Virus record (IMG/VR): IMGVR_UViG_3300035698_005236 | Span: 1-35,904 of that record | Reading direction: 5' to 3' (one strand) | Source of the DNA: a virus | DNA: 35,904 nucleotides | Position numbers and translations under genes: made by a program | Notes under the pieces: generated by a model | Database searches by the model: none | Seen by the model: only the letters and a program-made list of their open reading frames with translations | What the model was told of the DNA's origin: nothing | Shown here: positions 3 to 9,497 of the stretch, one piece after another | How the letters are laid out: every line of letters begins with the position of its first letter | Position numbering within the stretch: position 1 is the first letter of the stretch

Positions 3-536
3 ATCCAGACTATCAACGGGCACTCCTCCGGGGATAAGACGACGTCAATTGCTTCTATCATGGAGCCGGTATGTCGAGCGATCGATCTCGGCTGCGGCAT
101 CGCCTATACCACGGCGGCGCTGACCCAGATATTCCCCCACGCTGATGTCTACGGAACGAACCTGCCGGGGAAGCAGTACGACTTCGGGGAGAAGATGGCG
201 AGGCGGTATGGATTCACGATGCTAGATGAGATCCCGAAGCTGCCGGTGGACCTCGTGATGGCGTTTGAATACTTCGAGCACATCGAGGCCCCACTCTTCC
301 ATCTTCAGGTAATCATTAACCGTTTAGAGCCGCGCATGTTCTACCTCGCAAATTCGTTCAATACGTTCTCTGCAGGTCACTTCAGAACCTACCGCCCGAT
401 GCGGAGAGACACGACGGCGGTGTGGAGCCAGGGAAAGATCTCAAGAGTCTTCAACCGCCTCCTCGGCTACAACGGATATGAAAAAGTGAAAACGGGGAAC
501 TGGAATAACAAGCCGGCACTGTGGAGGAGAAGTTGA
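3..536 (+). CDS. SAM-dependent methyltransferase-like protein, 5' end outside window
   Basis: The frame is open from base 3, and the first in-frame ATG (60) has no ribosome binding site. The visible 177 codons are therefore probably the C-terminal part of a longer gene. The stretch RAIDLGCGIAYTTAALTQ is a class I methyltransferase motif I (SAM-binding glycine loop), followed about 50 residues later by LVMAFEYFEHIEAP, in the place of motif IV. This shows a Rossmann-fold methyltransferase; the substrate cannot be read from sequence. It ends in a TGATG overlap with galE, so the two are probably co-translated. Lying beside sugar and radical SAM genes, it could act on a modified base, a sugar or a small molecule. 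Family call is fairly sure, substrate unknown. Confidence 0.7.
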   Translation: MQTINGHSSGDKTTSIASIMEPVCRAIDLGCGIAYTTAALTQIFPHADVYGTNLPGKQYDFGEKMARRYGFTMLDEIPKLPVDLVMAFEYFEHIEAPLFHLQVIINRLEPRMFYLANSFNTFSAGHFRTYRPMRRDTTAVWSQGKISRVFNRLLGYNGYEKVKTGNWNNKPALWRRS

Positions 537-1519
537 TGGAGAAGTCATCGAGAGTATTGGTTACTGGAGGAGCAGGGTACATCGGATCCCACGTGGTACA
601 GGAGCTATGCGATAGGGAATACCAGGTGGTCGTCCTCGATCATTTCTCTCTCGGTCGCAGGGAGAATGTGGACCCCCGGGCCGAGATCATCGGGGGGGAC
701 ATCTGCTACTCCGCAGATCTCGAACGAGCCTTCACCACCTACGGGGACATCGGAACCATTTTCCACTTCGCTGCGCTCAAGGAGGTGGGAAGTTCAATGG
801 GCAATCCCATCGAATATGCGAGGAACAATCTTGTCGGGAGTCTGAAGTTGATGGAGGCTGCGGTACAGCACAATGTCGAACGCTTTGTCTTCTCCTCCTC
901 CGCCTCGGTCTACGGGGCACCGCAATTCATTCCGATAGATGAGAGCCACCCGACCGAGCCGGTGAATTACTACGGGTACACGAAGCTGGCGGTCGAAGAG
1001 AACCTACGCTGGTTCAGCAAGCTGCACGGGCTCCGTTACTCCGCACTCCGATACTTCAATGCTGCCGGTTATGATCGCAGCGGTCGCATCATAGAGAGGG
1101 AACGGAGGCCGGCGAATCTTTGCCCTCTCGTCATGGAGGTCGGCGTCGGGATGAGGGACAAGCTCCAGGTCTTCGGGAACGACTACGACACGCCGGACGG
1201 TACTTGCATCCGTGACTATATCCACGTCGACGATCTCGTGCTCGCGCACATCTACGCAATGGAATATCTCATGGAGTGGAAGGACGAGGATCTCGTTGTG
1301 AACCTGGGCACGGGCCGAGGGTATTCCGTCCTCGAGATAATCGCGGCCGCAGAGTCGGTAACTGGCGCCAAGATTCCTTTTGAGTTCACAGATCGCAGGC
1401 CGGGAGATCCGTCCACGCTGGTCGCCAGTTCCTTCCTTGCGGAGGAGAAGTTACGCTGGAGGGCCGAGCACTCTGACCTCTCTACTATTTTCGAGTCGAT
1501 GCTTCGTGCCTATACTTGA
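536..1519 (+). CDS. galE: UDP-glucose 4-epimerase (NAD-dependent SDR family)
   Basis: Interconverts UDP-glucose and UDP-galactose with tightly bound NAD. At 327 residues it is close to the usual bacterial GalE length (about 330-340). The N-terminal NAD-binding glycine motif is VTGGAGYIGSH (G11, G14, G17). The catalytic Tyr-Lys pair is Y146/K150 in YYGYTK, preceded by the conserved FSSSASVYG serine strand and followed by LRYFNAAG. The ATG at 536 is chosen over the in-frame GTG at 521 because a GGAGGAG Shine-Dalgarno (522-528) sits seven bases before 536 and the ATG overlaps the stop of the upstream gene. A phage epimerase suggests local supply of UDP-sugar. The glycosyltransferase at 6955 is the obvious consumer, although another UDP-sugar epimerase activity is possible. 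Confidence 0.92.
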   Translation: MEKSSRVLVTGGAGYIGSHVVQELCDREYQVVVLDHFSLGRRENVDPRAEIIGGDICYSADLERAFTTYGDIGTIFHFAALKEVGSSMGNPIEYARNNLVGSLKLMEAAVQHNVERFVFSSSASVYGAPQFIPIDESHPTEPVNYYGYTKLAVEENLRWFSKLHGLRYSALRYFNAAGYDRSGRIIERERRPANLCPLVMEVGVGMRDKLQVFGNDYDTPDGTCIRDYIHVDDLVLAHIYAMEYLMEWKDEDLVVNLGTGRGYSVLEIIAAAESVTGAKIPFEFTDRRPGDPSTLVASSFLAEEKLRWRAEHSDLSTIFESMLRAYT

Positions 1520-2043: not shown

Positions 2044-2247
2044 ATGTCTATACGCGAACGCAAGCGAACCATGCAGCTGAACATCAGAGTCACGCCCGAG
2101 GAACTTGCCCAGATCCGTGCTGCTGCCCAGGTCGCAGAAGTTACGATGACACGGTTCGTGGTGAAGGCGACCATTGACAAGATCAATGACAACGAAACTG
2201 GGTTCAAGGGTACGCTCCGCAGGATGAGAGAGGCGGGAGAGGTATGA
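2044..2247 (+). CDS. ribbon-helix-helix DNA-binding protein
   Basis: 67 residues. A basic N-terminus (MSIRERKRTMQ) leads into LNIRVTPEELAQIRAAAQ, a beta-strand plus helix pattern typical of ribbon-helix-helix (MetJ/Arc, DUF1778-like) proteins, then a second helix (MTRFVVKATIDKI). Such proteins bind DNA as dimers, often at their own promoter. The promoter lies immediately upstream, so autoregulation of this operon is plausible but inferred. No clear ribosome binding site precedes the ATG at 2044; a second in-frame ATG at 2071 also lacks one. The gene ends in an ATGA overlap with the terminase-like gene. Next to that gene it could alternatively help packaging-site recognition. Confidence 0.65.
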   Translation: MSIRERKRTMQLNIRVTPEELAQIRAAAQVAEVTMTRFVVKATIDKINDNETGFKGTLRRMREAGEV

Positions 2248-2903
2248 CCAAAAGAAAGCCCCCGACTACACCCCCCAAGAAAGCCGGTTCGGTCAAAGCG
2301 ATGCCGGCGGCGAAGGGTGGTAAAGGACGGCAACCGTCAGTCGCAAAGAAGGCAAAGAAAAAAACCAATGGGCCGAAGATAACTGCGGCGACTTACAACA
2401 CGCTGCAGGAGGCATACTTCGAGCACCAGTCCATCGACCACGCGGCGAAGGTGGCGAAGGTTTCCTTCAAGACTGCGAAGGTTTACATCAACGGACCGGG
2501 CAAGCCGGAGGTCGGGCTCGTGCCCATCAAGCAGCTGTGGCTGGACGTGCAGATGGAAGCCCAGGAGAAGCGCCAGCTGACCCTCCTCAACTTCCATAAG
2601 GAACAGCTGAAGGAGCTGGAGGAGATGCTGAACACCTCGCTCGGTGAGCTGAAGTTGATCCGTGCCGGCACGATGCGGCGAATGAAAAACTTCAAGGATA
2701 GCGGCGGCGTAAATATCGAGACGGCAGCTTCTCTCGGATCCGCGCTGAAGAGTTATGAGAGGGTGGCGCGATTGACGGAGAGGTTCCTCGGCGCGGCGGA
2801 TACTACGCTGGAGCATCGGGGTGACGATAGGTATCTGAATTGGAGCGACGACGAGATCGTTGAGTTTATGACCACCGGCAAGGTTCCGGACCACGCTCGG
2901 TAG
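2244..2903 (+). CDS. probable small terminase subunit (TerS-like)
   Basis: 219 residues. The N-terminal 45 residues are rich in Lys, Pro and Ala and probably disordered and DNA-binding. A helix-turn-helix-like segment at about residues 63-83 (SIDHAAKVAKVSFKTAKVYI) follows, then a long charged helical region (about 95-150) that could form the oligomer. The C-terminus SDDEIVEFMTTGKVP resembles the tail found in many phage small terminase subunits, thought to contact the large subunit. TerS marks viral DNA and directs TerL to start packaging. Position fits: it comes first in the structural direction, but about 4.9 kb of other genes separates it from TerL at 7845, which is unusual. Another HTH protein is the main alternative. 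Confidence 0.6.
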   Translation: MTKRKPPTTPPKKAGSVKAMPAAKGGKGRQPSVAKKAKKKTNGPKITAATYNTLQEAYFEHQSIDHAAKVAKVSFKTAKVYINGPGKPEVGLVPIKQLWLDVQMEAQEKRQLTLLNFHKEQLKELEEMLNTSLGELKLIRAGTMRRMKNFKDSGGVNIETAASLGSALKSYERVARLTERFLGAADTTLEHRGDDRYLNWSDDEIVEFMTTGKVPDHAR

Positions 2904-3549: not shown

Positions 3550-3641
3550 AGAGAAGAGTCGCACCGTTCAACACTCCTCGCGTGTACTCCGCACCCCTTT
3601 TTAGCGATGAGGCCATGCGAGAGGTACTGAGCCATGCGTAG
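3546..3641 (+). CDS. 31-residue peptide gene before the radical SAM gene
   Basis: A purine-rich GAGAGGAGAGGGG ribosome binding site immediately precedes ATG 3546, and the ATGA overlap with the upstream gene and an 8-base overlap with the radical SAM gene at 3634 argue that it is really translated. The peptide is basic at the start (MKRRVAPFNTPRVYSAPLFS) and mildly acidic after it (DEAMREVLSHA). There is no cysteine and no known domain. Its position could make it a translational coupler, a regulator, or a substrate of the enzyme that follows; none of these is demonstrated. Confidence 0.45.
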   Translation: MKRRVAPFNTPRVYSAPLFSDEAMREVLSHA

Positions 3642-4779
3642 CTGCGAGCCACAGCCTCCTTCTGGGATCCTTTCTGAAGAGGAGATGTTGGACCGACTCC
3701 GTGCTGCGCGGCGCGTCTTCCTCCTCGAGCCGAACTACAAACGGAAGTATCTGCCGCTCGGCCTCGCAAAGATTGCGACCTTTGTGAAGAACAACGGAGG
3801 GAAGGTTTGGTTCGGGCGCGACTACTTCGGGCCACCGGTAGATCTAATCTGCACGACCTCCCTGTTTACCTACGACTCAGCCCGGGTAGTTCACTCGATA
3901 AACAATGCGAGAGGAGTGAGCCGCGATACTCCGATTCTTGCTGGCGGGATCTATGCCTCCCTGATGCCGAAGGATCTGATGGAACGGACCTTCGAGAACG
4001 CTGAGATGTTCCTCGGGTATTCGCCCACCCTCGACGAGCTCGTGCCCGACTATTCCCTGGACTGGGGGATGGAGGATCCCTGGAACGATTTCAGCTTCAC
4101 GTTCACCTCTCGGGGATGTCCGAACAAGTGCCCCTACTGTGCCGTTTGGCGTATCGAACCAGAGGTCTGGGTGAACCCACGATGGCGCGACCACATTCTC
4201 CCCGATAAACCGTGTGCGATGATCTCCGACAATAACCTCAGTGCGGCGCCGACAGAACATCTCCATGAGGTTCTAAGCTACCTGGAGGAGACGAAAAAAA
4301 AGGTAGTCTTCGACAACGGCTTCGATGCGAAGCACATCACCGAGGAGATGGCGTTGCGGCTGGCGCAGCTGAAGTATACGCGCACGGGAATGCGACTGGC
4401 CTTCGACCGCATTGAGGAGGACGGCATCGTCCAGCTGGGCATCGAGCGCCTGATAGCTGCGGGAGTCCCGAAGGCCGAGATAATGGTCTACGCATTATTC
4501 AACTTCAACGACACACCGAGGGAGGCATTGTATCGGCACGAACAGGTACGGAAGTTCGGGGCCCGTCCCTATCCACAGATGTACACACCGCTGAACCAGC
4601 GCGAGGAGAAGAGGAAGAAACACTTCATCGGAAAGCACTGGACGTGGTCCCTCGCACGTGTCTTCAGAACCTACTGGTTAATGGCAGGGATCTACAGCAA
4701 GATGAGCTTCGATGATTACGCAAGGTCGCAGGACAAAGTTGAACTGAACACTGAGGACTGGGAGAAGCTGAACGCATAA
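3634..4779 (+). CDS. radical SAM enzyme with B12-binding-like N-terminus
   Basis: 381 residues. The [4Fe-4S]-binding CxxxCxxC motif is C162, C166, C169 (SRGCPNKCPYC), the mark of radical SAM enzymes, which cleave S-adenosylmethionine to a 5'-deoxyadenosyl radical. The 160 residues before it (LEPNYKRKYLPLGLAKIATF ... DTPILAGGIYASLMP) resemble the Rossmann-like cobalamin-binding half of B12-dependent radical SAM proteins, but I see no DxHxxG cobalamin ligand motif, so the cofactor may be lost. The C-terminal half fits a TIM-barrel and a helical tail. Start 3634 has GAGG nine bases upstream. It opens the enzyme cassette 3634-7848. Family certain; reaction and substrate unknown. A nucleobase, a sugar or a peptide are all possible. 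Confidence 0.85.
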   Translation: MRSCEPQPPSGILSEEEMLDRLRAARRVFLLEPNYKRKYLPLGLAKIATFVKNNGGKVWFGRDYFGPPVDLICTTSLFTYDSARVVHSINNARGVSRDTPILAGGIYASLMPKDLMERTFENAEMFLGYSPTLDELVPDYSLDWGMEDPWNDFSFTFTSRGCPNKCPYCAVWRIEPEVWVNPRWRDHILPDKPCAMISDNNLSAAPTEHLHEVLSYLEETKKKVVFDNGFDAKHITEEMALRLAQLKYTRTGMRLAFDRIEEDGIVQLGIERLIAAGVPKAEIMVYALFNFNDTPREALYRHEQVRKFGARPYPQMYTPLNQREEKRKKHFIGKHWTWSLARVFRTYWLMAGIYSKMSFDDYARSQDKVELNTEDWEKLNA

Positions 4780-4809
4780 CCCCGTCGAACGAAATGAAAG
4801 GAATGGGCA

Positions 4810-5568
4810 ATGGGCAAGGGCAAGCAAAAAGAGCGCGACCTATCCGCACCGAAGGCGGTCGCAAGCGGGGTAAAAGTTTTCTGTGCTCACGACGAGCTTG
4901 TGGATATCACAAAGCTGATACCGAATCCGAGAAACCCAAATAAGCACCCTCAGAACCAGATCGAGCTACTCGCAAAGATCATCATGAACACGGGGTGGCG
5001 AGGTCCGGTAACTGTCTCTACGCGCAGCGGGTTCATCGTGCGCGGTCACGGTCGGTACGAGGCTGCGAAAGTTATGCAGGTTGACGACATGCCGGTCGAC
5101 TTCCAGAACTATGCAAGCGATGCGGAAGAGTGGGCTGACCTCATCGCGGATAACCGAATCGCGGAGCTATCTCGAATGGACACCTCTGGCTTAAAAGATC
5201 TCCTGATAGAAATCGACAGCGGCGCGTTTGACATGGACCTCACTGGCTTCGATATGGGATCCCTCGAAGACCTCATGACCCTCGGCATGCCACCGGCAAA
5301 CGATGCGGGAAAAGAGTGGGAAGGAATGCCTGACTTCGAGCAGGATGACGTGGAACCGATACGCACTCTCTCCGTCCACTTCGTTGACGAGGAGGGCATC
5401 GCAGATTTCAAGAAGCTCATCGGCCAGGAGTTTTCCGACAAGGCGAAATACATCTATCACCCCGAGGCGGAGATAGACCACGTCGCTGATAGCCGATGGG
5501 TAGGGAAGGAAGGCGAGAAGCCTGAGAAGACTGAGGAGTCTGAGGAGACTGAGGTCGATGAAAAGTAA
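4810..5568 (+). CDS. ParB/sulfiredoxin-fold protein (phage ParB-like)
   Basis: 252 residues. After a basic N-terminus comes a ParB/Srx-type domain: LVDITKLIPNPRNPNKH (about residues 29-45), a helix (QIELLAKIIMNTGW), a strand turn (GPVTVSTRSGFIVRGHGRYE, with GHGR near 79-82), then VDDMPVDFQNYASDAEEWAD. In chromosomal ParB the box II arginine motif binds and hydrolyses CTP; here GHGRYEAAK occupies the same place. The centromere-binding HTH of plasmid ParB is not evident, and the acidic tail ends in Glu/Thr repeats. Phage ParB-like proteins often lie beside DNA methylases or modification genes and some have nuclease activity. Here it sits between two radical SAM genes and overlaps the second by 11 bases. 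A role in DNA modification or recognition is inferred. Confidence 0.8.
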   Translation: MGKGKQKERDLSAPKAVASGVKVFCAHDELVDITKLIPNPRNPNKHPQNQIELLAKIIMNTGWRGPVTVSTRSGFIVRGHGRYEAAKVMQVDDMPVDFQNYASDAEEWADLIADNRIAELSRMDTSGLKDLLIEIDSGAFDMDLTGFDMGSLEDLMTLGMPPANDAGKEWEGMPDFEQDDVEPIRTLSVHFVDEEGIADFKKLIGQEFSDKAKYIYHPEAEIDHVADSRWVGKEGEKPEKTEESEETEVDEK

Positions 5569-6940
5569 CGGGACATTGCATGCGAGCCTACTCGAAAGAG
5601 TGAGGAGCGACCTCCAGCTTTCTCTCAAGGACTTCTGCTCGCGCCTCTCTCTTTCTACAGAGGACTACAACGCATTTCTGTGCGCGGATAATATGCGGAA
5701 CTTCCCACCGCGTGCCATCAGCCACCTTCGAGATCTTATGCTGGAGATGGAGAAGGCGAACCTGGATAAGTTCAAGGTGCATTCGGCATCTCGGGCCACC
5801 GGCCACTTCCACTCGTCGAAGATACTTCGGCACATCGAGAAGATAGCTGGGCTGGACGGAGAGCATCCTGAATCCGTAGGTCCGATAACCATAGAGCTTC
5901 ACCCCTCGAACGTGTGTAACCACCGTTGTCCAGGCTGTACGTTCAGCATCCCGACACGTGCGAAGGAGCAGGGAGAGCAGGGAGAATTCTGGAAGGCCAA
6001 GTTCGACATGGACCTCCTTCCGAAACTCCTCGAGGACATGGTTTCGTTGGACGTGCGCGGAGTCACTCTGTCGGGAGGAGGCGAGCCGCTACTCCACCCT
6101 GAGTTGGCCGCTATCATCCGAGGCATTCACGCCGCAGGCATCGAGGTCGGCCTCGTTACCAACGGGTCGCTGCTACACAAGGACAGCGAGAACATGGCGG
6201 AGGTTATCTATGCGATTACAGAGTGTTGTACGTGGTGTCGTGTCAGCGTAGATGCGGGAGATCAGGAAGGGTACGAACAGATGCACGGTCAGGTCGCGGC
6301 CGTGAACTTCGAGAACCTCGCCGCCGGCATCGCTCGTCTCGGTATTGCGAAGGAGAATACGGGCTCGCAAGTCACACTCGGAGTGTCCTATCTCATGACC
6401 CCGGGGAACTATCTTGAAATCATCACGAGCGTGTTGAAGTTCCGCGAGATCGATGGGCTGGACTACTTCCAGGTGAAGCCGTTGGAGATCCCTCCAGTCG
6501 AGCGCGGGATGAGCATAGATTCGATCTACTGGGACCGAAGGATCTTCGACACGCTAATCATGTTGGGAGCCTATGAGCGCGACGGGTTCGCAATCTACAC
6601 TCCAGGCTACAAGTTCGCAGATATTCTTCTCTCCGAAACCGACGGTCTGCCATTCTCGCGGTGCTGGTGCCATCCCTTCTGTCCTACCATCTGTGCTGAC
6701 GGAACAGTCGCGGTCTGCTGCCACATGCTCGACTATATTTTCAGGGAAAATAAGATCGGGATCTACGGGAAGCTGACGAAGGATCTTCGGCTGTGGGATC
6801 TCTGGACTACGGAGGAGAGGTTCGCCGTGGGCAGGGACATTGTGGTACGCATGTGTCCGAGTAACTGTAAGCTCGCAGAGGCGAATAAAACCCTGGAACA
6901 AATGTACAACGACTCGCCGCATTCCAGCTTCATAAGCTGA
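5558..6940 (+). CDS. radical SAM enzyme with SPASM-like C-terminal cysteines
   Basis: 460 residues. An N-terminal helical region of about 100 residues precedes the radical SAM core. The core has the cluster motif C120, C124, C127 (SNVCNHRCPGC) and the following glycine strand GVTLSGGGEPLLHPE that contacts SAM. The C-terminus has many cysteines (C369, C371, C375, C379, C387, C388 and the pair C433/C437). This arrangement is like the SPASM/twitch extensions that hold auxiliary iron-sulfur clusters. SPASM enzymes mostly modify peptides or proteins (sactipeptide, quinone-cofactor and sulfatase maturation), although some act on other substrates. It is translationally coupled to the ParB-like gene. 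Unlike the enzyme at 3634, it has no B12-like domain, so the two are not simple duplicates. Confidence 0.87.
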   Translation: MKSNGTLHASLLERVRSDLQLSLKDFCSRLSLSTEDYNAFLCADNMRNFPPRAISHLRDLMLEMEKANLDKFKVHSASRATGHFHSSKILRHIEKIAGLDGEHPESVGPITIELHPSNVCNHRCPGCTFSIPTRAKEQGEQGEFWKAKFDMDLLPKLLEDMVSLDVRGVTLSGGGEPLLHPELAAIIRGIHAAGIEVGLVTNGSLLHKDSENMAEVIYAITECCTWCRVSVDAGDQEGYEQMHGQVAAVNFENLAAGIARLGIAKENTGSQVTLGVSYLMTPGNYLEIITSVLKFREIDGLDYFQVKPLEIPPVERGMSIDSIYWDRRIFDTLIMLGAYERDGFAIYTPGYKFADILLSETDGLPFSRCWCHPFCPTICADGTVAVCCHMLDYIFRENKIGIYGKLTKDLRLWDLWTTEERFAVGRDIVVRMCPSNCKLAEANKTLEQMYNDSPHSSFIS

Positions 6941-6954
6941 GAGGAAAAGCAGAG

Positions 6955-7848
6955 ATGAACCCGCAGTTTCCGATCTATATTCCGTCGAAGGGCCGATGGG
7001 ATAACGAGAAGACCATGAACAACCTCGAGGCTATGGGGTGCGACTATCTCGTCGTCGTTGAGGAACCAGAATATACGAAGTACAAAGCGGCGCTCGGGGC
7101 CCACCGTCTTATCGTTCTCGACGAGGCATATAAACGCGACTACGACACCCGCGATGAGTTCGGTCTGGACAAGCCTACGGGAGCAGGGCCGGCACGGAAC
7201 CAAGCCTGGGACCATGCGATCTCGATAGGTGCGAAGTGGCACTGGGTGATGGATGACAACATCGCAGGATTCTACCGCGCATATAAGAATCGGCAGATCA
7301 AATTTGCAGACGGCACCGGGATAAAAATCATCGAGGACTTCTGTCTACGGTATGAGAATCTCGTGCTGGCGGGGCCGCAGTATTTCATGTTCGTACCGCG
7401 CAAGGTAAAGGTCGCTCCGGTAGTCTTCAACACCCGCATATATTCCTGCCAGTTTATCCGGAACGACATCCCGTTCCGCTGGCACGGGAGGTACAACGAG
7501 GACACCCTTCTATCGCTTGCCGTGCTGAAGGCAAAGTACTGTACCGCACAGTTCAATGCCATCCTCCAGCACAAGACTCCCACGATGACAATGAAGGGCG
7601 GATACAACGACGAGATGTACAAGCATCAGGACCGTTTCGTAAACTCGGATATGCTCGTCCGTCTCCACCCCGACGTGGCTCGTCACTGCTACCGCTTCGG
7701 CAGGAATCACCACTACGTTGACTATACGAAGTTCAAGAAAACGAAGCTGATAAAACGGACTGACATCGAGATCCCGCAGGGACCGAATAACTACGGGATG
7801 GAACTTATCGACAGGGCGCCAGGGGAAGGGAAGAACGCCGCGGAATGA
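6955..7848 (+). CDS. TET-associated (GREB1-like) glycosyltransferase
   Basis: 297 residues, the whole protein being one glycosyltransferase domain. It matches my recollection of the TET-associated glycosyltransferase (TAGT) family: an N-terminal PIYIPSKGRWD, GAGPARNQAWDHA, a metal/nucleotide-sugar binding DDN (D100-D101-N102, WHWVMDDNIAGFYR), AGPQYFMFVPRK, NTRIYSCQFIRNDIPFRW, a likely catalytic NED (N181-E182-D183) in RYNEDT, and RFGRNHHYVDYTKF near the end. The family was described in phages that carry TET/JBP dioxygenases, where it is predicted to glycosylate hydroxymethylated cytosine in DNA; eukaryotic GREB1 has a related domain. A strong GAGAGGA site precedes the ATG. It is ATGA-coupled to the terminase gene. 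No dioxygenase is present in this window. Confidence 0.82.
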   Translation: MNPQFPIYIPSKGRWDNEKTMNNLEAMGCDYLVVVEEPEYTKYKAALGAHRLIVLDEAYKRDYDTRDEFGLDKPTGAGPARNQAWDHAISIGAKWHWVMDDNIAGFYRAYKNRQIKFADGTGIKIIEDFCLRYENLVLAGPQYFMFVPRKVKVAPVVFNTRIYSCQFIRNDIPFRWHGRYNEDTLLSLAVLKAKYCTAQFNAILQHKTPTMTMKGGYNDEMYKHQDRFVNSDMLVRLHPDVARHCYRFGRNHHYVDYTKFKKTKLIKRTDIEIPQGPNNYGMELIDRAPGEGKNAAE

Positions 7849-8159
7849 ATACCGTTGAGCCCAACGCACCGCTGGCCTCAGACCCAGGAGCTATCCCCGT
7901 CCAGGGGTTCGTTGAGTCCTCTTCTATCCACGATGACTACAAGCCCCCAGTACTCCATCTGCCCCGGGTAAATCGAGGAGCCTATCTCCACACTCACTCC
8001 CGGCATCTGCTCGTGGAGAGGGCCGAGGCAATGCGTGATCGCCAGATTAAAAAGGCGAGGGAATCCGCGTCGTCATTCTTGGAGTATTGCTTCGTCGAGG
8101 AGAACAGCGGACTCCCGTATCAACAGCAGTGGGTCCACGACGAATGGCATCGGGCCTGA
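7845..8159 (+). CDS. terL: large terminase subunit, N-terminal fragment
   Basis: 104 codons starting at an ATGA overlap with the glycosyltransferase gene. The end of the fragment (FLEYCFVEENSGLPYQQQWV, then HDEWHRA) is the segment that normally lies just before the ATPase core in phage large terminases. It stops at TGA 8157-8159. The same frame then has a codon pair, a second TGA (8166-8168), and continues directly into the Walker A strand and the rest of TerL. This fragment alone could not package DNA. It is either the start of a full protein made by readthrough or recoding, or the result of mutation or sequence error. Confidence 0.7.
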   Translation: MNTVEPNAPLASDPGAIPVQGFVESSSIHDDYKPPVLHLPRVNRGAYLHTHSRHLLVERAEAMRDRQIKKARESASSFLEYCFVEENSGLPYQQQWVHDEWHRA

Positions 8160-8168
8160 GATCGGTGA
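8157..8168 (+). other. two in-frame TGA codons interrupting terL before Walker A
   Basis: Both halves of terL are in the same frame (positions divisible by three). TGA codons at 8157 and 8166 are separated by two sense codons (Asp-Arg). After them the frame reads RRGRVIAPRDHAKTSNVVGR, with the Walker A loop PRDHAKT at 8190-8210. There is no start codon between the second TGA and the Walker A motif: the first, a GTG at 8217, lies after it. Translating the 9 to 16 bases from 8157 in the next frame (EIGDGVA...) also gives a plausible bridge, so a compensating pair of indels is an alternative to two nonsense changes. Confidence 0.75.
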
Positions 8169-8216
8169 CGGCGTGGCAGGGTCATCGCTCCTCGCGACCA
8201 CGCCAAGACCTCGAAT

Positions 8217-9497
8217 GTGGTAGGCCGAGTCATCTGGGAGCTTGGAAACAATCCGAACCTCCGCGTGAAGATAGTCTGCGCTTCAGACGGACGTGCGAAG
8301 GAGAGGCTGTTCGAGATCGATCAGCACATCATGACGAACCCGAGGGTGCGAGAAGTATTCCCAGATCTGATACCGGATCCGGATGCACCTTGGAACGCCC
8401 ACCGTCTTGTGCTGATGAGGACCGCGAGACACCGCGATGCCTCCGTCGAAGCTCTCGGTATCACATCGACCGCAACAGGTGGACGCGCCGATCTCCTCAT
8501 CGCAGATGACGTAGTCGACCGACGGAACGCTCTCTCTTTCCCCGCGCTGCGGGAGCAGATCAAGCAGGCATGGAAATCTGACTGGACGAACCTCCTCGAG
8601 CCCGACTCGCGGGTCTGGTATATCTGTACCCTCTGGTCGCCTTCAGATCTCTCACATGAGCTGATGGAGAACAAAGCGTACATGGTCCTGCGGTACGACA
8701 TCGATGACAACTTCGGATCTATCTGGCCGTCGAAGTGGGGAGAGGCAAACCTGCGAATGCGGTATGAGGAGATCGGCAGCATCGAGTTCAACCGAGCCTT
8801 CCGCAACCAAGCTATTGATCTGGAGTCTGCTCTCATCCAGCCGAACTGGTTCGCTTATAGCGACCTCCGCACGAACGCACGCTTCGCAGAAATCGTAGAG
8901 AAAGACACCGCCATTTTCCTCACCAGCTACGACCCCGCAGGAACGCCGACAGGGAATCGCAACCAGGACTATACGGGAGCATGCGTCGCAGCTATAGACC
9001 GGGAGCGCGGTGACGTCTACGTCGTGGACGCATGGCATCGCAGGATAAGTGTGAAGGCTCTCGCAGATATGATTCACGCCGAGGCCATGACGTATAGTCC
9101 CTGGCAGGTACTCATCGAGAAAGTAGGGCTCGCAACAGTAGACGAGTGGGTCATCAATGAGTACCCCGAGATGGCCTCCGTCCTGAAGGTGACACGTCCG
9201 AGAGTATCGAAGCAACAGCGTCTACTCGGTGCGACTCCTCTCCTCGAAAAAGGTAAAGTAATTTTCTCCGCACACCTCGATCCGAACGGAGAGTTATTCG
9301 ATGGGTCGAGAGGATCCCTGGTAGACGAATTATCCGAGTTTCCGTTCGGAAAGCATGACGATATGGTGGACTCGTTCTCTCAACTTATCGGCTCTGCCCG
9401 TGCACACTTCCTTGACGTGGATGCCGACGGAGGTGAGAATGTACCAGAGATACATTTCTTCAATGAAGAGGACGACAACGATGGATATGCTTTCTGA
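8217..9497 (+). CDS. terL: large terminase subunit, ATPase and nuclease part
   Basis: 426 codons from GTG 8217 as an isolated frame; the intact reading extends upstream to 8169 and includes Walker A (PRDHAKT, 8190-8210). Walker B with the catalytic acidic residue is ADLLIADDVVD. The RNase H-like nuclease domain shows FLTSYDPAG (first metal-binding Asp) and, near the end, FPFGKHDDMVDSF (later acidic residues). TerL translocates DNA into the prohead using ATP and cuts the concatemer. The coding quality after 8169 is excellent with no further damage, which argues against an old pseudogene. No good ribosome binding site precedes 8217, so translation from there as an independent protein is unlikely and would lack Walker A. 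Confidence 0.88.
   Translation: MVGRVIWELGNNPNLRVKIVCASDGRAKERLFEIDQHIMTNPRVREVFPDLIPDPDAPWNAHRLVLMRTARHRDASVEALGITSTATGGRADLLIADDVVDRRNALSFPALREQIKQAWKSDWTNLLEPDSRVWYICTLWSPSDLSHELMENKAYMVLRYDIDDNFGSIWPSKWGEANLRMRYEEIGSIEFNRAFRNQAIDLESALIQPNWFAYSDLRTNARFAEIVEKDTAIFLTSYDPAGTPTGNRNQDYTGACVAAIDRERGDVYVVDAWHRRISVKALADMIHAEAMTYSPWQVLIEKVGLATVDEWVINEYPEMASVLKVTRPRVSKQQRLLGATPLLEKGKVIFSAHLDPNGELFDGSRGSLVDELSEFPFGKHDDMVDSFSQLIGSARAHFLDVDADGGENVPEIHFFNEEDDNDGYAF

Follow-up and report, generated by a model that had tools for sequence, protein, structure and literature searches.

Radical SAM enzymes carry out steps of the thymidine hypermodification pathways of the phage ViI/M6 type. Glycosyltransferases of the TAGT family, in turn, act in TET/JBP-TAGT hypermodification operons, the systems to which the name of the Pfam family PF20691 refers. 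In phages T2 and T6, a TAGT of this family adds a second glucose onto glucosyl-hmC in DNA (PMC13216743, PMC13390438). Moreover, a 2026 study found solitary TAGT homologues in 288 out of 753 phage genomes and termed them potential novel transferases (PMC13216743).

The locus described here lies in a window of 35,904 nucleotides, an incomplete contig (35.9 kb) of a tailed virus. Between positions 3634 and 7848, four genes encoding a radical SAM enzyme (rSAM1), a ParB-like protein, a second radical SAM enzyme (rSAM2) and a TAGT are closely spaced on the + strand and lead into the large terminase gene. The ParB-like gene shares 11 nt with rSAM2, a gap of 14 nt separates rSAM2 from TAGT, and the TAGT stop overlaps the start of the next gene by 4 nt. 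The four-gene cassette of the initial annotation was thus recovered, with + strand open reading frames at or adjoining these positions. Its location between small and large terminase is firm on one side: the TAGT gene adjoins the DNA-packaging motor gene, a large terminase identified by PHROG search (7845..9497, + strand), which in this record is broken by in-frame stops into 7845-8159 and 8217-9497. On the other side, the gene at 2244..2903 (+ strand), for which Pfam and PHROG searches returned no match, is a probable small terminase judging from its position and its 74% identity to the gene at the same place in L272, a sister phage with an 84% identical large terminase. Further upstream, family search revealed a GalE-type nucleotide-sugar epimerase (521..1519, + strand), which could supply a donor. 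This gene was not counted as part of the module; its linkage in relatives is loose, and in L272 and four others it is found elsewhere, unlinked to the cassette.

The glycosyltransferase (6955..7848, + strand) was assigned by Pfam and PHROG searches and matches PF20691 with an E value of 1.5e-34 (120.2 bits; curated cut-off 27.5), in agreement with the earlier TAGT-type call. It carries the motif HWVMDDN, of which DDN is kept in 152 of 153 relatives. A GT-A fold is indicated by the fold of a natural fusion protein from a relative (see below); a solved-structure search with the TAGT sequence itself gave nothing useful. The T6 protein likewise scores above the PF20691 cut-off (37.2 bits versus 27.5), but BLAST returned no match between it and the window TAGT. 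Due to this distance, the acceptor of the window enzyme could differ from that of T6.

The ParB-like gene (4810..5568, + strand) encodes an N-terminal ParB-like domain and a C-terminal domain, here termed PartC, as delineated by Pfam, PHROG and comparison with relatives, among them a 71% identical homologue in L272. It matches phrog_498, a ParB-methyltransferase family, with an E value of 4e-39, whereas the match to ParB_N (PF02195) stays at 15.9 bits, under the cut-off of 26.3. Family searches with the larger ORFs of the window revealed no ParA, and the gene shows neither of the two features, a ParB_N match above cut-off and a ParA partner, that define a ParB partition protein. PartC (about 5314..5472, + strand), delimited by motif comparison (EWxGMPEF...VHF...F..LIGQ....K.K.I..P), matched no family in the Pfam search. 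It is an undescribed domain of about 50 residues and, within the ParB-like gene, the real link to TAGT. Of 149 TAGT genes from viral and prophage loci, 133 have PartC upstream, and partner genes are present in 88 out of 114 independent groups, counts being given by groups where IMG/VR loci are partly redundant. Since the loci were collected by motifs of the window subfamily, these statistics are silent on T6-type TAGTs. Several phages encode natural PartC-TAGT fusions, among them Vibrio phage 1.076.O and Aeromonas phage phiAS5, and in most phages PartC is fused to ParB; a Chryseobacterium prophage is one carrier of ParB-PartC with TAGT.

The partner proteins bear either a ParB domain or, if ParB is lacking, often a motif resembling those that bind sliding clamps. 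An N-terminal QxxLF occurs in 9 of 48 ParB-less partners versus 0.37 in shuffled sequences and in none of 65 ParB-bearing partners; when redundancy is filtered more strictly, 5 of 43 ParB-less partners retain it (0.18 in shuffles). In addition, phage beta clamps, recognized by a profile match to solved DNA polymerase III beta (E 1e-20), adjoin 8 of 41 ParB-less but 0 of 65 ParB-bearing partners (Fisher p 3e-4). This alternation of ParB and clamp in the sequences is suggestive of an adaptor recruiting the glycosyltransferase to DNA. PartC would bind TAGT and the ParB domain would carry the complex to DNA, a role that in ParB-less relatives might be filled by the short clamp-binding-like motif or by a neighbouring phage sliding clamp. 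A literature search for ParB in combination with TAGT found none.

The second radical SAM enzyme, rSAM2 (5558..6940, + strand), contains the motif CNHRCPGC (residues 120-127) with Cys120, Cys124 and Cys127 in CX3CX2C spacing, matches PF04055 above cut-off (E 9.1e-13) and ends in a cysteine-rich C-terminal part. SPASM (PF13186) gave no Pfam match in rSAM2, but the C-terminal cysteines and a predicted fold similar to those of DesII, BlsE and SuiB are present. The nearest solved structures to the predicted model, which is of moderate confidence (pLDDT 71), are DesII (Z 24.4) and BlsE (Z 23.7), followed by peptide maturases with Z scores of 20-22, and the top match of a profile search was BlsE (E 8e-17). 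On the basis of model and profile, rSAM2 most resembles the sugar-acting enzymes DesII and BlsE, bearing in mind that fold alone proves no function. Distant relatives (24-32%) are located in phage clusters of sugar and glycosyltransferase (glycan) genes. The N-terminal 106 residues of rSAM2 (5558..5875, + strand) form an extension with four predicted helices, which is without family match and common only to the 82% homologue in L021; a helix-turn-helix is not claimed.

Radical SAM enzymes with SPASM-type folds often modify peptides, and the fold matches of rSAM2 include SkfB and SuiB. The module might accordingly glycosylate and radically modify a protein or peptide such as PartC, the terminase or a capsid protein, in a RiPP-like or virion-glycosylation system. 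The solved fold neighbours of TAGT, searched with the PartC-TAGT fusion of a relative, include protein glycosyltransferases, the partner gene, small and conserved, might encode a substrate, and in MW202801 genes for an rSAM2-like protein, a glycosyltransferase and a dioxygenase come after the capsid gene. However, no candidate RiPP precursor was recognised, and many loci have PartC fused to TAGT or to ParB, which is unlike a precursor peptide. With the ParB and clamp links pointing to DNA and a DNA-acting member in the TAGT family (PMC13216743), protein or peptide modification appears quite improbable.

Few TAGT loci contain radical SAM genes, which indicates that these are accessory to TAGT modules. 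They are recurrent partners of TAGT. The sister phage L272 displays the order rSAM1-rSAM3-ParB-TAGT-TerL, and the order rSAM3-rSAM2-TAGT-TerS-TerL occurs in a phage whose terminase is unrelated (23%) and whose rSAM2 is 82% identical to that of the window. Comparison of these loci shows an interchange at the sequence level, rSAM2 of the window being replaced in the sister phage by rSAM3, which belongs to a different family and matches SPASM above the Pfam cut-off. An unbiased search with rSAM3 yielded 16 independent groups, 14 of which have TAGT in the locus; a 15th group, a 305 kb phage, encodes a PartC-TAGT fusion at another place in the genome. In L273-275, radical SAM and TAGT appear fused, but this was not accepted as a natural fusion: roughly the first 45 residues of TAGT are missing, as is the SPASM end of the radical SAM part, and because both parts are incomplete, a deletion is likelier. 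A literature search for radical SAM enzymes with TAGT found none.

Comparing neighbourhoods had been proposed in the initial annotation as a means to refute a joint function, and the outcome is linkage for rSAM3 and the 82% rSAM2 homologue and a mixed picture for rSAM1. The interval between TerS and TerL often gathers accessory genes, and rSAM1 usually occurs without TAGT, as would be expected if the four genes were morons inserted independently beside the terminase and shared no pathway. Yet for ParB-PartC with TAGT and for rSAM2/rSAM3 this explanation is already contradicted by the PartC and rSAM3 frequencies given above and by the same combination turning up both next to unrelated terminases and within replication regions. 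For the cassette as a whole it is very improbable.

The first enzyme, rSAM1 (3634..4779, + strand), carries CPNKCPYC (residues 162-169; Cys162, Cys166 and Cys169 in CX3CX2C spacing) and matches phrog_9298, a 'radical SAM domain protein' family (E 7e-40); the match to the Pfam radical SAM family is weak (19.8 bits, cut-off 29.5). The cassette thus indeed holds two radical SAM enzymes, as previously proposed, but the B12-like N-terminus ascribed to rSAM1 was not substantiated, the match to PF02310 being partial and below cut-off (19.7 versus 32.1 bits). A 68% identical homologue occupies the same operon position in L272, and a solved-structure search with the rSAM1 sequence gave nothing useful. 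Most relatives lack TAGT and are found near DNA methyltransferases or clamps. One lies in an operon of ParB, C5-cytosine methyltransferase and rSAM1, and suggestively, the close relatives L040-L043 have a DNA methyltransferase within 250 bp.

Radical SAM enzymes modify nucleobases in RNA. The gene neighbours of rSAM1 relatives are consistent with a DNA-glycosylation module in which the handle on the nucleobase is formed or changed by the radical SAM enzymes and then capped by TAGT, as is the absence of a known handle-making enzyme from the virus records examined. For the window such absence weighs little, because the record is an incomplete contig. The thymidylate-synthase family (PF00303), which includes the dCMP hydroxymethylase that makes the handle in T-even type glucosylation, was absent from the window, itself a fragment, and from 19 related records in a search that detected its control. 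However, most TAGT modules are devoid of radical SAM enzymes, which hence cannot be the general handle maker, rSAM2 is closest to sugar-acting enzymes, and proximity of rSAM1 to methyltransferases was observed just 13 times versus 7.5 expected at random, so that no such link is claimed. Radical formation or alteration of the base handle is therefore rather unlikely.

The reading that is somewhat favoured is a phage DNA-glycosylation module with radical SAM tailoring of the sugar; the same gene set, recurrent in many unrelated viruses, probably decorates DNA with an unusual, altered sugar. TAGT would use a nucleotide-sugar as donor and attach its sugar to a handle carried by a DNA base, and rSAM2, like DesII and BlsE, would use radical chemistry to remodel the sugar, either while it is still part of the nucleotide-sugar or once it is attached to DNA. 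Counting against this reading, the records examined revealed no gene for making a base handle. Less certainly, rSAM1 may contribute another tailoring step, perhaps with the base as its substrate. Modification would follow replication and could protect DNA against restriction or CRISPR; the suggestion that it is made before or during packaging was derived solely from gene position. The theme of DNA hypermodification is well supported, since a DNA glucosyltransferase belongs to the TAGT family, the ParB domain also occurs in DNA methyltransferases, partners are clamp-linked, and radical SAM enzymes and TAGT recur together in unrelated phages. The associated link to TET gained no support: PF12851 had no match in the window and 70 other TAGT records, which are mostly fragments and in which the control stayed silent.

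Most of a large TAGT subfamily hereby gains a partner protein, for which ParB and the sliding clamp are proposed as two different ways of reaching DNA, and a group of radical SAM enzymes is found to travel with TAGT. Acceptor and chemistry become directly testable with few proteins. If the proposed function is right, radical sugar chemistry joins phage DNA modification, widening the range of base modifications that face restriction, CRISPR and DNA-glycosylase defences and suggesting new DNA-labelling enzymes. More tentatively, the cassette might represent a new class of viral DNA hypermodification, in which TAGT is tethered via an exchangeable adaptor of ParB or clamp peptide and PartC, and the sugar is rebuilt by radical SAM enzymes before or after its transfer; DNA would then bear previously unknown deoxy-, keto- or decarboxylated sugars.

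Among known systems, the beta-glucosyl-HMC-alpha-glucosyltransferase of T2/T6 shares with the window enzyme the phage origin, the family PF20691 and the GT-A fold, and the T6 enzyme glycosylates DNA. However, PartC is present in the window subfamily and absent from T6, no alpha-glucosyltransferase or dCMP hydroxymethylase was seen here, and there are radical SAM partners. TET/JBP-TAGT operons likewise use TAGT as glycosylating enzyme, whereas no TET/JBP was detected in the 71 TAGT records, and a ParB-PartC or clamp-linked partner and radical SAM enzymes are found with TAGT instead. Pathways of the ViI/M6 type have in common the use of radical SAM enzymes in phage DNA modification, but their 5hmdU synthase, kinase and pyrophosphorylase-like gene are unseen here and a sugar transferase is central. 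In phage ParB-DNA methyltransferase fusions (phrog_498), ParB is also joined to a DNA-modifying enzyme, and the window ParB domain is 57% identical to that of the ParB-N6/N4 DNA methyltransferase fusion of Faecalibacterium phage FP_Lagaffe; the methyltransferase domain is replaced in the window by PartC and a separate glycosyltransferase. Finally, rSAM2 matches DesII and BlsE best in fold and profile, and the substrates of these two enzymes are sugars or nucleotide-sugars. At about 16% identity, rSAM2 differs from them in its own N-terminal helical extension and in its location in a phage encoding a probable DNA glycosyltransferase.

The window constitutes a complete IMG/VR record of 35,904 bases without terminal repeats and represents an incomplete tailed virus, in which sheath and tape-measure genes are present. 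As claimed by the initial annotation, its plus strand carries four tightly packed open reading frames (ORFs), which lead into the gene of the large terminase (TerL). The radical SAM protein rSAM1 (3634–4779; phrog_9298, E 7e-40) and the ParB-like protein (4810–5568; phrog_498, E 4e-39, a family of ParB-DNA methyltransferases) score below the Pfam cut-off, and the second radical SAM protein, rSAM2 (5558–6940), and the TET-associated glycosyltransferase (TAGT, PF20691; 6955–7848) score over it. The match to a B12-like N-terminus, also attributed to rSAM1, lies below the cut-off. By its position, the gene upstream of the cassette is probably the small terminase. The TerL frame (7845–9497) is broken by in-frame TGA codons at 8157–8159 and 8166–8168, whereas it forms one uninterrupted ORF in the phage most closely related to that of the window (locus L272; 84% identity in TerL and 74% in the small terminase-like gene); the split may reflect either a sequencing error or a real break.

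At the gene level, the cassette is a real, conserved and widespread module. An alignment-based TAGT search yielded at least 595 loci from viral contigs, together with 55 from bacterial genomes, where Pantoea, Erwinia, Chryseobacterium and Xenophilus are among the named isolates. At all 19 loci retrieved with the window TAGT, the ParB-like gene or its C-terminal part is situated directly upstream of TAGT or overlaps it. This part, a domain of about 50 residues termed PartC, displays the conserved pattern E-W-x-G-M-P-E-F ... V-H-F ... F ... K-T-K-x-I-W-x-P and has no match in Pfam. Among 149 TAGT genes that do not lie at the edge of a contig, PartC is found upstream of 133 (95 with and 38 without a ParB domain), and several of those lacking it upstream are natural PartC-TAGT fusions. 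Further fusions occur in Aeromonas phage phiAS5 and in a 305 kb phage; the model of a natural fusion is well folded (pLDDT 89.7) and shows a GT-A glycosyltransferase preceded by an N-terminal domain. Counted by independent TAGT groups, the partner gene is present in 88 of 114 and a large-terminase cluster in 45 of 114, at a median distance of 612 bases. Partner and TAGT together are the core of the module.

A cytidylyltransferase-like gene (PF01467) immediately 3′ of TAGT, observed in L193 (8912–9367) and six other groups, perhaps makes the activated donor. Tandem TAGT genes in L197 (9944–11859) and L239 (2–1539) could add two sugars one after another, and in L229 (7749–9476) a distant second TAGT-family protein is encoded directly 5′ of a TAGT whose N-terminus is greatly extended.

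The window's ParB domain shares 57% identity with that of a ParB-N6/N4 methyltransferase fusion, indicating that this domain also serves another DNA-modifying enzyme. ParB-less partners often begin with a short motif resembling the β-clamp-binding consensus, e.g. QPSLFDE, QRCLFDD or QKELFEL. QxxLF is found in 9 of 48 ParB-less partners, compared to 0.37 expected from shuffles (5 of 43 under a stricter redundancy filter), and in none of 65 ParB-bearing ones. Phage sliding-clamp genes, assigned by profile to DNA polymerase III beta (E 1e-20), adjoin 8 of 41 ParB-less partners but none of the 65 with ParB (p 3e-4). Judged from sequence, PartC may be an adaptor with exchangeable DNA tethers, which fits the ParB and the clamp data alike. 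As cited in PMC13216743, T4 α-glucosyltransferase reportedly associates with the T4 replisome, and the work behind this statement describes how the enzyme interacts with the T4 clamp, gp45.

Among viral contigs, rSAM2 has a single close relative (82%). It comes from the phage L021, whose terminase is unrelated (23%) and whose genes run in the order rSAM3 - rSAM2 - TAGT - small terminase-like gene - TerL, where rSAM3 belongs to a different radical SAM family. The order in L272 is rSAM1 - rSAM3 - ParB - TAGT - TerL, with identities to the window of 68% (rSAM1), 71% (ParB) and 59% (TAGT). Both arrangements indicate that rSAM2 and rSAM3 are interchangeable, with the core staying fixed. With rSAM3 as the sole query, 16 independent groups were retrieved, 14 of which harbor TAGT within the locus; the fifteenth is the 305 kb phage, which carries its PartC-TAGT fusion elsewhere in the genome. 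In L273 (5968–7317), L274 and L275, a single ORF joins the rSAM3 radical SAM core to a TAGT minus its first ~45 residues, probably as a result of deletion.

Relatives of rSAM1 mostly lack TAGT and are often found near phage clamps or DNA methyltransferases; both genes co-occur in L015, L064 and L272. In the window virus, rSAM1 likely belongs to the pathway, but not generally. L040 (6510–9414) has overlapping genes whose products are a ParB-like protein, a C5-cytosine DNA methyltransferase and a homologue of rSAM1 (48%); next comes a fragment that looks like the C-terminal end of a methyltransferase. L015, a phage with PartC-TAGT and rSAM1, encodes at 697–2752 QueD and a QueE that is split by an intein-like insert (PT-HINT, HNH), which suggests that it also carries 7-deazaguanine DNA modification.

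The substrates of DesII and BlsE are sugars bound to a nucleotide or nucleobase. The rSAM2 model (pLDDT 71) matches the folds of DesII (Z 24.4) and BlsE (Z 23.7), and BlsE also ranks first in the profile search; a peptide substrate is possible, with peptide maturases placed behind these two enzymes (Z 20–22). For rSAM3, the closest matches are BtrN and a lipid synthase. Distant rSAM2 relatives are located in phage sugar clusters or next to glycosyltransferases. In L022 (MW202801; 11989–16652), one run after the capsid gene begins with an rSAM2-like protein and continues with a family 2 glycosyltransferase, a PhyH-type dioxygenase, a methyltransferase, a NodB-like protein and another glycosyltransferase. 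The resemblance to DesII and BlsE, the relatives in sugar clusters and the adjacent sugar transferase make a sugar the likeliest substrate. The base itself is a serious rival, because no enzyme making the handle, the chemical group to which the sugar would be attached, was found in any record examined. Tailoring by radical SAM enzymes would be confined to a minority of modules, with that of the window virus among them.

Taken together, the sequence data point to DNA glycosylation as the most likely function of the module, which is not a ParB partition system. Literature on PartC, the alternation of ParB and clamp or the radical SAM association was not found, though the 2013 paper naming TAGT may already describe part of this; solitary TAGTs are regarded as potential novel transferases in the 2026 literature (PMC13216743). 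The window shares the TAGT family with the DNA enzyme of T6 (PMC13216743; PMC13390438), but its subfamily is remote from the T6 TAGT, and the present evidence does not mark the module as a TET-TAGT operon.
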